This document shows, one piece after another, positions 3,684-29,753 of a stretch of 48,612 bases of DNA (the first letter of the stretch is position 1; every line of letters starts with the position of its first letter). A program made the position numbers and the translations under genes. The stretch comes from a virus. The DNA lies in the IMG/VR virus record IMGVR_UViG_3300048904_000453, positions 1-48,612 of that record, one strand, 5' to 3'. The notes beneath the pieces were generated by a model. That model saw nothing but the letters and a program-made list of their open reading frames with translations, was not told where the DNA came from and did no database searches.

Positions 3684-3705
3684 GCCCCGTCGCCGGGGCT
3701 TTTTT
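3684..3705 (+). terminator. Intrinsic terminator, plus direction
   Basis: GCCCCG (3684-3689), loop TCGC, CGGGGC (3694-3699) and six T residues. The T-run overlaps the stop codon of the minus-strand tail-fibre gene. It would stop plus-strand transcription from the 3.1-3.7 kb segment. On the minus strand no T-run follows the stem. Confidence 0.8.
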
Positions 3706-4996
3706 ATGCGTCGAGACCGTCAATAGCTTTCATGCGCATAAGAAGCTCTTCAATGACTGTTTCCTGTTTCTTTAATCTTTCAACTAAAGCAATGATCGCT
3801 TCTTGGTGCATTGCCGCTGATGCTCCAGCAACGTCGAGATATAGCGGATTGTCAACCTCTTCACCATTGACGAGTTTTTTAATAACTCCTTCATCAACAG
3901 TTACAGCTTCGGGTATTAGCGCCTGCACATCCTGCGCAATCAATCCAACGCCGACCGACTCTATTCCATCGCGACGTATCCATTTATATCCGCGAATCGC
4001 CAAGAAATCAGGATTATCAAGGATGCTTTCGCCGCCAATTAACTCAATATTGTTTTTTAATCTTCTGTCTGATGAATTGACCCAACTGCCGTTAATGGCT
4101 ACAGCATTTCCTCCCTCCCTGAATTGCCAGGTGTACCACGACCCATTTGCGAATATGCCCCTGTTAATGTAAAAATAGTTTCCGATAAATTCCAAAAATT
4201 CATCTATTCCATACGCTGACCAAGCTGAGTTTGTACCATAGCCATAGTTAAATCCTCCATAATTGTTCGTTTGTCCTGAGGATGTGTTTGGACGATAACT
4301 ACTGCGGGATAGAATCCTTGCTCCCGACGTAGATGAAAATCGCTGAATATCAGTAGTGACTATTCCGCCTGATTTATTATTTATAGTGTCGAGTCGGGCG
4401 TCATTACCCTGCGCAACAGTTCCAGAAGTTGTTCCGTAAGAAACGCCCATATTTGCTCGGGCTGTCGCCGCCTGCGCTGGGGAGCCAAAGGCAAGATTGC
4501 CATTCAGATACAAACCACCATTGATGTCCTGACCACCGTTAGCAACAATTCTTCCTGTAAATGTCGCTCCGTCCAGGCTTGCTTTGTTGGCAAACTGAGT
4601 TGCCATATAGCCCCAGCTAGGCCCCTGCCATGATGTGCCGTCGGGCAACGTTACTGTAACTGTTCCAGTACCGGTGAAAATCTGCTGCCAGTTAGCTTTA
4701 TCTAGGTTAAAGCCGCGAATTGCGTACGTGACTTGTGATGCCAACTGAGCAGTAATCGCCGTCATCGTTCCGTATGGCACGGGCGTCCATGACTGACCTG
4801 ACGCTGTCGGCCCAGTAAAATTCTCCATTAAAGTAAGAGATGTATTCGACTCGATCGACTTAACACCAAGCGTATATGCCAGACCTCCTACAGTTGATAC
4901 CAGAAAGTCATTCACTTTTAATTCAGTAGTGAAACTAGTTCCTGTGCCTGTGACGGTTGCTGAGTTATTTGTTAGAGCAATGGTGCCTGCTGGCAT
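3704..4996 (-). CDS. Tail fibre with C-terminal S74 intramolecular chaperone
   Basis: Receptor-binding side or tip fibre of 430 residues. I use the ATG at 4996, which has GGAG 7 bases upstream; an upstream in-frame ATG at 5029 lies inside a terminator. The N-terminus carries a short tail-attachment domain (MPAGTIALTNNSATVTGTG). The middle has fibre-like Gly/Asn-rich repeats and an Ala-rich linker (SPAQAATARANMGV). The end is a peptidase S74 domain: SSDRRLKNNIELI contains the self-cleavage Ser-Asp, followed by GLIAQDVQALIPEAV and a C-terminal coiled coil (MHQEAIIALVERLKKQE). The chaperone trimerises the fibre and is then cut off. It is the last gene of the late operon. A cor moron with its own terminator precedes it, so late transcripts must read through to reach it. 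Confidence 0.9.
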   Translation of the reverse strand: MPAGTIALTNNSATVTGTGTSFTTELKVNDFLVSTVGGLAYTLGVKSIESNTSLTLMENFTGPTASGQSWTPVPYGTMTAITAQLASQVTYAIRGFNLDKANWQQIFTGTGTVTVTLPDGTSWQGPSWGYMATQFANKASLDGATFTGRIVANGGQDINGGLYLNGNLAFGSPAQAATARANMGVSYGTTSGTVAQGNDARLDTINNKSGGIVTTDIQRFSSTSGARILSRSSYRPNTSSGQTNNYGGFNYGYGTNSAWSAYGIDEFLEFIGNYFYINRGIFANGSWYTWQFREGGNAVAINGSWVNSSDRRLKNNIELIGGESILDNPDFLAIRGYKWIRRDGIESVGVGLIAQDVQALIPEAVTVDEGVIKKLVNGEEVDNPLYLDVAGASAAMHQEAIIALVERLKKQETVIEELLMRMKAIDGLDA

Positions 4997-5010
4997 AGTT
5001 TTCTCCGGGC

Positions 5011-5038
5011 AATAAAAAACCCGGCGCAATGGCCGGGT
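5011..5038 (-). terminator. Intrinsic terminator after cor
   Basis: On the minus strand ACCCGGC, a 6-base loop and GCCGGGT are followed by six T residues. It ends the cor transcript before the tail-fibre gene. Antiterminated late RNA could pass it. Confidence 0.85.
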
Positions 5039-5050
5039 CTTTATAATGGA

Positions 5051-5168
5051 GCTGCTGTGCCGGGTGCCTCCCGGTGAACCTTACAGTCGTCGGTCCGCGT
5101 CTCGTTTGTATTCAATCTTTCGAGAGAAATAGACTGTCGCCCCACCGCATAGGGGTATTCACAGCAGC
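5051..5168 (-). ncRNA. Candidate structured RNA in the cor 3' UTR
   Basis: A 118-base non-coding stretch folds, by eye, as a closed multibranch structure. A 9-base-pair closing stem (5051-5059 with 5160-5168) encloses three hairpins: 5060-5064 with 5070-5074; 5083-5088 with 5132-5137, extended inside by 5100-5104 with 5121-5125; and 5140-5143 with 5152-5155. The minus-strand terminator 5011-5038 directly follows in the direction of cor transcription. The pairing is symmetric, so the strand is inferred from cor and that terminator. I cannot name a known RNA family. Confidence 0.5.
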
Positions 5169-5207
5169 AGATGGAATTTAGCTTATAAATCTGAAATCGT
5201 AAACCTA

Positions 5208-5435
5208 TTAAGCTTTGTCACAAGTTGAGCTCGTGAAGTTATTGGCGCTGACCCACTTCCAGCCAAAAGGATTACCTGCATAATACTGAGTCTGATTAGC
5301 TTGCTTTCGCACGCCGTAAATAGAAACTGTCGTATCCTGCCCGCCAATTCTTGCATTAGCAGTGCACTGTTGAGGTGGGAGCGTCTGGCATCCGGCTAGT
5401 ACAGAAGTAATGATTAAGAGGAAAATTTTATTCAT
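5208..5435 (-). CDS. cor: Cor-like superinfection-exclusion lipoprotein
   Basis: Encodes 75 residues with a lipoprotein signal (SVLAGC, Cys16). The mature part resembles the Cor family of phages N15 and phi80 (CTANARIGGQDTTVSIYGVR, NPFGWKWVSANNFTSSTC). Cor blocks receptor use by FhuA, preventing re-infection by phages that bind it. Two or three mature Cys could form disulfides in the periplasm. Position between the tail tip and the fibre genes is where cor is found in related phages. A promoter at 5462-5490 and terminator at 5011-5038 make it an autonomous moron that could be expressed in the lysogen. The lipoprotein call is firm; the Cor identity is good but recalled. Confidence 0.75.
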   Translation of the reverse strand: MNKIFLLIITSVLAGCQTLPPQQCTANARIGGQDTTVSIYGVRKQANQTQYYAGNPFGWKWVSANNFTSSTCDKA

Positions 5436-5461
5436 TTTTTCATCCTTGTTTATTTCGTAAC

Positions 5462-5490
5462 TTTATACCTTTACCGCAAGGAATCATCAA
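5462..5490 (-). promoter_or_regulatory. Sigma-70 promoter of cor
   Basis: On the minus strand TTGATG, a 17-base spacer and TATAAA lie about 27-55 bases upstream of cor in an AT-rich gap (5436-5521). Both hexamers are close to consensus, consistent with expression independent of late transcription. Confidence 0.65.
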
Positions 5491-5521
5491 ATTTATTTAT
5501 TATTTATCACGATCAAAATTA

Positions 5522-6202
5522 TCAATACCTCTGCACATTTACTGCTACCAGTCGGTTTCGGTAGTTTGTAAGCGTTCCTGTGCCACCTCCCCCCGAATTT
5601 GTATTACCTATGTAGCCGCTAGTAATTTGCGTGCTACTACCATTGAATCTAGCGCTGCTTGCGTATTGCGCCACCACTGGATATACCTGACCGCCTACGC
5701 TGACCGTGCCTATATAGCTTCCCGTGTATACCGGCGCTACAGCCCACTCACCGTCTAGGTTGAAGTTAGCATTAAGTCCTGAACCTGTGTCGGAACCCTC
5801 ATCACCTAACTTCTGTACATCCCGCAAAACCTTCGTCTCATTTGTCAGAATGCATCTCCCTTGCGAGTCGTTGATTTGAATGCCCCATGCAGGGATTGGC
5901 TGAAATTGATATCCGAAAATATAAACGTTTACCGTTCTTGCTGGCCCAGCACACCTTAGGCTCCAAACCCCACCAGATAATTCCAGTGCTTCGCAAGTGC
6001 TTAGAGTGTTACCTTGGGATCCATTGCTATTAGCAAAAATAAACCTTATCGCTCCATCATTGTTGAAAAGATTTATTAATGCTCCGCTACCCGACGCTTG
6101 GGGAACATTAAGTACTCGTTTTTCTAGGAGGGTTAGCGGCATTGTGTCGCCGATATAAAAAGGAACTCCAGCAGAGTCTGTAAGAATCGCTCCGTAAGCC
6201 AT
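5522..6202 (-). CDS. Tail-tip accessory protein (DUF6453-like)
   Basis: Encodes 226 residues beginning MAYGAILTDSAG, the same MAYG start as the next gene upstream, which suggests two related tail-tip accessory proteins. The sequence is beta-rich and ends with Gly/Ser-rich repeats (NTNSGGGGTGTLTNYR). It follows J by two short genes, where other lambdoid phages carry small fibre-adaptor or tip-decoration proteins. The DUF6453 name is from memory and needs a profile search. No signal peptide or membrane segment is seen. Only one base separates it from the upstream gene. Confidence 0.7.
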   Translation of the reverse strand: MAYGAILTDSAGVPFYIGDTMPLTLLEKRVLNVPQASGSGALINLFNNDGAIRFIFANSNGSQGNTLSTCEALELSGGVWSLRCAGPARTVNVYIFGYQFQPIPAWGIQINDSQGRCILTNETKVLRDVQKLGDEGSDTGSGLNANFNLDGEWAVAPVYTGSYIGTVSVGGQVYPVVAQYASSARFNGSSTQITSGYIGNTNSGGGGTGTLTNYRNRLVAVNVQRY

Positions 6203-6203
6203 A

Positions 6204-6506
6204 TTACCTCACGAAAACAAGAATATTTCCAGGGACGTTGGGGAATGTGCCAGCCGAATAATCCGAGCTTGATACCTGAATGACAATCATGCTGGATCCG
6301 CTTGTGTACATCCTCTTTCTGCCATTACCACTTCTGTCTCCGCTGGGCTGAAATAAATAGTCAAGTGAGTATCCTGAAGGTAATGAAAAGGATTGGTTGT
6401 AATTACTGGATGCATCAATCGTAATAACCCCTAGAGCATTAATCTTGACCAGTCCAGTATTGTTATCGACTCCATTGGCATCCCATGTTCCAAAGCCGTA
6501 GGCCAT
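6204..6506 (-). CDS. Small tail-tip accessory protein
   Basis: Encodes 100 residues beginning MAYGFGTWDANG. It is beta-rich with a short hydrophobic end (NILVFVR). The start overlaps the J stop, implying translational coupling with the tail-tip protein. Similar proteins lie after J in other siphophages, where they are thought to decorate or extend the tail tip. The specific role is unknown. Confidence 0.72.
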   Translation of the reverse strand: MAYGFGTWDANGVDNNTGLVKINALGVITIDASSNYNQSFSLPSGYSLDYLFQPSGDRSGNGRKRMYTSGSSMIVIQVSSSDYSAGTFPNVPGNILVFVR

Positions 6507-29507: not shown

Positions 29508-29753
29508 ATACACCTCGCTGTTCGCTTGGTGCCGCCTGTAGTCGTAAGAAAAGTGCGCGCACCCCCACACAGCAATGAGGGTCTGAATAAGTTTTGGGAT
29601 GGCGCAAAAGAAGAAAAGGCCCGCCAAGGCGAGCCCATAAATATTTTTGATTAAATAGCCTGCGAATGATGCCGATAACTCTAGTTTGGAATTATCATAT
29701 ATCCGCGCTTAGCGAGAACATGCCCCACATATTTATTGGCAAGGATTCCCAAA

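Follow-up and report, generated by a model that had tools for sequence, protein, structure and literature searches.

Between the superinfection exclusion gene cor and the tail fibre gene of the viral record IMGVR_UViG_3300048904_000453, the initial annotation had read a multibranched RNA in the 3′ UTR of cor that it could match to no known family. What is this RNA, is it more than the end of the cor mRNA, and what could it do? We addressed these questions using the entire stretch of 48,612 nt (in the following called the window) together with related loci in phages and bacteria.

The RNA downstream of cor belongs to the STnc100 family

A search of the whole window against Rfam 15 yielded one family at gathering thresholds, STnc100 (RF02076), which matched the minus strand at 5012–5194 with 76.4 bits (E-value 1.2e-14) against a curated gathering score of 47 bits; the initial annotation, which had been unable to match the RNA, was thus incomplete on this point. 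The match spans the complete model (1–206; window 5194–5012) including the 3′ terminator, and from its inferred start to the end of the T run the RNA measures ~157 nt (5012–5168, minus strand). When region 4900–5600 was searched by cmscan at E-values up to 1, STnc100 was the sole family listed; DicF (RF00039) had no match there or elsewhere in the window. Our own covariance model, R1, scored 81.2 bits over 5051–5168, the window copy being part of its training set, and the window RNA has a covarying core fold in common with other STnc100 members. By blastn, the window copy itself matched no E. coli genome. The RNA is a real, conserved and structured member of a known, functionally unexplained family; this kind of family was known already, and the present member is new.

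A second candidate at 29606–29713 (minus strand; E-value 1.7e-4) is flanked by the antitermination gene Q and the holin region and has a CUAAGCG loop as well as a terminator-like hairpin. We rejected it as an STnc100 copy, its score of 22.6 bits being below the gathering threshold and R1 finding nothing there. A match in Pseudomonas phage PseuP_222 was likewise discarded, as by its coordinates it covers merely 33 nt at the terminator.

The fold contains a pseudoknot supported by covariation

The minus strand at 5012–5194 folds with −62.2 kcal/mol (z = −3.5); none of 200 dinucleotide shuffles folded as well, and z is −3.3 when flanks are included. The plus strand folds less stably (z = −2.7; two of 200 shuffles equally good), and the minus strand is therefore the better one. 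On it, helix P1 closes a junction of the hairpins P2, S2 and P5, and the terminator follows. The initially annotated 9-bp closing stem is real, formed by 5160–5168 with 5051–5059 (GCUGCUGUG/CACAGCAGC), and the three hairpins are evolutionarily supported. P2 (5141–5156) has a conserved CUnnGCG loop and one bulged base; the S2 hairpin extends over 5076–5096, with GGACC (5092–5096) pairing to GGUUC (5076–5080); and P5 (5060–5074; CCGGG-AGGCA-CCCGG) is nearly invariant. The stem and hairpins of the multibranched fold thus stand; missed were a promoter-like element described below and a pseudoknot, in which the strand following P2 (ACAGUC, 5132–5137) pairs with GACUGU in the S2 loop (5083–5088) to form helix S1. 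Between S1 and S2 lies an insert (5097–5131), a candidate target-pairing region, which differs greatly in length and sequence from one family member to the next. Within this insert, AAACGAGA is nearly constant among the cor-linked copies, in whose alignment AAAC and AG are invariant and UCUC is largely kept, and a small hairpin, UCUCG/CGAGA (5121–5125 with 5100–5104), is predicted, with no covariation to assess.

A covariance model cannot represent a pseudoknot. In the window match, S1 is absent from the structure line of the Rfam STnc100 model, and a small Rfam helix placed over the S1 strand has broken pairs in the window RNA. The term pseudoknot does not occur in one study of related RNAs (PMC13192938) and is used of other RNAs only in another (PMC12370729); within the part of the literature that our search covered, the pseudoknot appears to be new.

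We gathered 126 copies from viral contigs and phage records, which were reduced to 62 at 90% and to 43 at 87% identity. Because the exact P5 motif was used for collection, P5 and its loop may seem over-conserved in this set. Nearly all kept copies have P1 closed by GTG/CAC, the CUnnGCG loop of P2, P5, and S2 ahead of P5, and in 62 of 62 base pairing is possible between the strand after P2 and the apical portion of S2. Compensatory changes were found at six of the nine P1 pairs and three of the four P2 pairs in 35 divergent copies, and at four and two, respectively, in the cor-linked copies. In locus L276, a U-A pair of P1 that is constant in the other copies is replaced by C-G, with both sides altered. 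P5 shows a change from C-G to U-A in N15, and dicF-linked copies have CCTGG/CCAGG.

In the composite alignment A2, the segments for S1 and S2 had been chosen for pairing, so their 100% pairing there does not count as evidence; for these two helices we relied on a permutation test and on a plain alignment, A4. The permutation test asked, in the 43 divergent copies, whether the strands of one copy are more complementary to each other than strands swapped between copies. Own strands scored 15.72 versus 9.86 for S1 and 13.63 versus 8.02 for S2, values reached in none of 20,000 permutations. Two of three control pairings were flat, including those with the variable insert, and the third, the post-P2 strand against the 5′ arm of S2, slightly exceeded chance (110/20,000). 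Alignment A4 was made by MAFFT from 11 distinct cor-linked copies, with no structural information supplied. Double, compensatory changes occur in it at 11 of 26 pairs and in all five helices, which none of 500 shuffles matched, and in slid controls the paired fraction collapsed from 96.5% to below 50%. The check proposed with the initial annotation, covariation in cor-flanking regions of related phages, thus came out in favour of the structure. The cor-linked variants of S1 are ACAGTC/GACTGT, CAGTCAAA/TTTGACTG, AAGCCA/TGGCTT and TCAGCC/GGCTGG. This permutation-tested pseudoknot model provides defined bases for mutation.

Genetic context and a probable promoter of the RNA

All features in this section lie on the minus strand. 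Upstream of the RNA, cor (5208–5435) encodes a superinfection exclusion lipoprotein of 75 amino acids (PHROG 1119, “Cor superinfection exclusion protein”, E-value 3.1e-25) with 47–50% identity to the Cor proteins of vB_EhrS_49 and N15. Downstream follows a tail fibre gene with a Peptidase_S74 chaperone domain (3704–4996; PF13884, E-value 4.9e-9; PHROG 1980, E-value 9.6e-82). The fibre reading frame begins with a TTG at 5029, within the terminator, and an ATG with a GGAG site is available at 4996, which is probably the true start rather than the TTG. Between J and cor (5522–6506) lie two small genes matching PHROG 425 (membrane-associated, moron class) and PHROG 557 (outer membrane protein); a pair of small genes occupies the corresponding position in N15 and vB_EhrS_49 as well.

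The previously noted promoter of cor, TTGATG-17 nt-TATAAA (5462–5490), can be read directly from the sequence and is absent from the output of our automated scan because the scan requires a T at the last −10 position. Many cor relatives have a similar promoter at a similar place, TTGATG or TTGAAA combined with TATAAG or TATAAA (mean best promoter score of the region 8.73 versus 8.37 ± 0.09 in shuffled sequences). As had been proposed, this promoter reaches the compact non-coding structure between cor and the fibre gene. The terminator (5012–5038) consists of a hairpin at 5019–5038 and a T run at 5018–5012; it is real and lies outside the interval 5039–5207 in which the element had been placed. 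The terminator scan entered the hairpin, as symmetric, on the plus strand, and the T run is that of the minus strand. It is common to cor and the RNA.

Directly ahead of the RNA, a second, probable promoter (5175–5203) consists of a −35 element TTTACG (5203–5198) and a −10 element TAAATT (5180–5175) spaced by 17 nt, a modest match with 8 of 12 consensus positions. Its −10 element ends 6 nt upstream of P1, implying a start at ~5168. The automated promoter scan did not list it. In N15, vB_EhrS_49 and L084, elements with 8–9 of 12 consensus positions are present at identical spacing and position, and in the near relatives L266–L271 the hexamers are kept while the spacer varies; L129 and L327, read by sequence, have no obvious promoter ahead of the RNA.

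The family copies fall into two subtypes, CCCC, to which the window RNA belongs (50 copies), and GCGG (11 copies). At a fixed position, the CCCC subtype shows a sigma70-like promoter (score 7.42 versus 6.01 ± 0.16 in shuffled sequences, 0/500), and 37 of its 50 copies have a terminator within 90 nt in the 3′ direction. The GCGG subtype gave no promoter signal (437/500), and none of its 11 copies had such a terminator. Only the fixed-position promoter test separates the subtypes; the unrestricted score barely exceeded that of shuffles (7.69 versus 7.27). A sigma70-like promoter belonging to the RNA itself is thus probable. The RNA does lie 3′ of cor, as initially described, and is probably more than a 3′ UTR, because the promoter-like element is placed so that transcription would begin with the first base of P1. 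With this promoter in a fixed place and kept among relatives, the RNA probably forms the 3′ UTR of the cor mRNA and at the same time is a gene in its own right.

The RNA is a cassette in the cor moron

Seventeen of 80 viral cor loci have the RNA after cor, always at one spot ~40 nt past the stop codon and on the cor strand. No copy was detected in the remaining 63, most of which pass from the stop codon to a terminator within tens of bases; in near relatives of the window lacking the RNA, this hairpin 3′ of cor is closely similar to the window's terminator. Genomes of Pantoea and Enterobacter show the same passage from cor to a terminator within tens of bases, and among 14 bacterial cor loci Pseudocitrobacter vendiensis alone has the RNA. 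Because it is present at a single spot in 17 of 80 loci while the others reach the terminator, the RNA is a cassette in the cor moron. On the cor tree, its presence and absence switch at least five times, two of these switches being forced by well-supported branches, with gain and loss indistinguishable in direction. Naturally occurring cor loci that have or lack the RNA offer ready controls. The order cor–RNA–fibre is the same in N15 and Erwinia phage vB_EhrS_49. The RNA positions there are L122:3993–4175 and L123:3972–4157, and neither record annotates an RNA, that of N15 giving a terminator only and that of vB_EhrS_49 nothing.

Relatives at other loci and between dicF and dicB

The other CCCC copies lie behind Q, by phage tRNAs, before an esterase gene or before holin genes. 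The GCGG copies occupy left operons, where they lie directly behind DicF in the interval from the repressor region to kil or dicB; these early copies include SfV, phiES15 and dicBF. In E. coli MG1655, R1, whose training set included GCGG-type relatives, matched between dicF and dicB with 60.9 bits; the Rfam STnc100 model itself also hit related dicF-linked loci, at scores below threshold (34–41 bits, E-values 2e-5 to 9e-4). In the MG1655 element P1 reaches 21 bp and both pseudoknot helices are readable. With a P1 of up to 21 bp, the dicF–dicB element is a possible RNase III substrate. The element (L359:743–894; 1649442–1649593) fills the dicF–dicB gap and is unannotated, and similar elements are found in L264, L161, L220, L265, L197 and L145. 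Its kinship to STnc100, which draws a well-studied K-12 operon into the family, appears to be new within the part of the literature that was covered.

Of 5426 complete E. coli genomes, 3384 had STnc100-like sequences, at up to 13 places each, and 4520 had the dicF–dicB element. Under strict filters, R1 matched in ten of 296 sampled Enterobacterales species genomes. Tandem STnc100-like pairs on the same strand occur in L103 and in G170:C1:2236946–2237287, with a further G170 copy on the opposite strand.

Likely function of the window RNA

Widespread as it is in E. coli, the STnc100 family has no demonstrated function in the literature searched. In E. coli O157:H7 EDL933, transcript reads were reported for its 11 STnc100 copies and a Northern band for STnc100_4, and some EHEC copies carry ribosome footprints (PMC5331693). 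In Salmonella LT2, binding of RpoD and RpoN was reported at promoter regions of STnc100 (PMC10794520), STnc100 is present in vesicles of Shiga-toxin-producing strains, where its role is hypothetical only (PMC12370729), and the STnc100-related PasD is bound by Hfq and found in RIL-seq pairs (PMC13192938).

We regard it as likely that the window RNA is an STnc100-family sRNA gene forming a second moron after cor, probably with its own promoter, and that this pseudoknotted RNA most likely acts in trans in the lysogen; the early suggestion of a possible sRNA agrees with the family identity. The gene would have been inserted between the stop codon and the terminator of cor in an N15-like tail operon. 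Transcription from its sigma70-like promoter would begin with the first base of P1; the RNA would in addition form the 3′ end of the cor mRNA, and a single terminator would end both transcripts. The closed junction with its loop–strand pseudoknot would hold the variable insert, yielding a stable sRNA made in the lysogen, to which Hfq would bind at the terminator U tail. Targets would be host or phage RNAs, and we infer that they would be recognized by base pairing through the insert at 5097–5131. That the P2 and P5 loops are so highly conserved hints at a constant partner, for which target pairing via a variable insert gives no explanation; this counts against the proposed mode of action. Further points against it are the modest promoter match, the lack of an obvious promoter in L129 and L327, and the footprints on some copies.

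A cis-acting 3′ UTR element, stabilising the cor mRNA or shielding its 3′ end and lacking any free sRNA function, would fit the position of the RNA, which follows cor directly in the same orientation, downstream of the conserved cor promoter and ahead of the terminator, and the second subtype is indeed embedded in an early operon without its own promoter or terminator. We consider this unlikely, however, since no copy was detected at 63 of 80 viral cor loci, the same fold occurs without cor after Q and near tRNA, holin and esterase genes, and a positioned promoter is a feature of the window subtype. A sponge role, in which the RNA would capture an RNA-binding protein or small RNAs of the host, also appears quite unlikely. 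A protein might bind at the constant loops, and the prophage anti-sRNAs AgvB and AsxR exist and were found near relatives of the STnc100 family (PMC13192938), but neither AgvB (RF02702) nor AsxR (RF02703) matched in the cmscan of 4900–5600 at E-values up to 1.

Constant loops in a compact fold would also suit a processive antitermination element that modifies RNA polymerase in cis, as would the occurrence of one subtype early in left operons and the frequent location of the other downstream of Q in late regions. The model for such an element, the HK022 put RNA, is ~70 nt long with two stem-loops close behind the promoter, acts in cis on RNA polymerase and is described with no mention of a pseudoknot (PMC9378689). 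A terminator follows directly in 37 of 50 copies of the window subtype, and the early copies sit behind the first terminator, not ahead of it; these features make antitermination very unlikely. A small-protein gene with incidental structure is highly improbable despite RefSeq hypothetical proteins under some coliphage copies and the footprints on some EHEC copies (PMC5331693), given core lengths that differ by numbers not divisible by three, the strong covariation of the helices and the lack of any ORF of at least 40 amino acids beginning inside the window RNA.

Beyond the preferred reading of a trans-acting sRNA, it is possible, if on balance doubtful, that lambdoid phages have recruited one pseudoknotted scaffold at dicF–dicB or kil in the left early operon, behind Q in the late region and in the cor moron, with constant loops for a constant partner and inserts for local targets. 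If so, the near-invariant loops CUnnGCG (P2) and AGGCA (P5) would bind a constant host protein or RNA, and STnc100 and the unexplained dicF–dicB region would form one RNA superfamily with a common biochemical activity.

Comparison with known systems

The HK022 putL and putR RNAs, compared via their description in PMC9378689 alone because the HK022 annotation that we retrieved carried no put feature, are likewise structured phage RNAs. They are located in early operons, whereas the window RNA has a 118-nt pseudoknotted core, belongs to the tail operon and is followed by a terminator. PasD1 and PasD2 of EPEC, which we liken by description only, are prophage-encoded, Hfq-bound, equipped with a terminator and structurally related to STnc100, and their seed regions are reported to be different (PMC13192938). 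The dicF–dicB element of the E. coli K-12 Qin prophage has the same P1-P2-pseudoknot-P5 layout as the window RNA; it differs in its GCGG-kind P2, in a P1 of up to 21 bp and in the lack of an own promoter and terminator in its subtype. Closest is STnc100 (RF02076) itself, which has equivalents of P1, P2, S2 and P5, the 3′ terminator and the prophage location in common with the window RNA, the latter being found downstream of cor in the tail operon rather than in the late Q, tRNA or lysis region.
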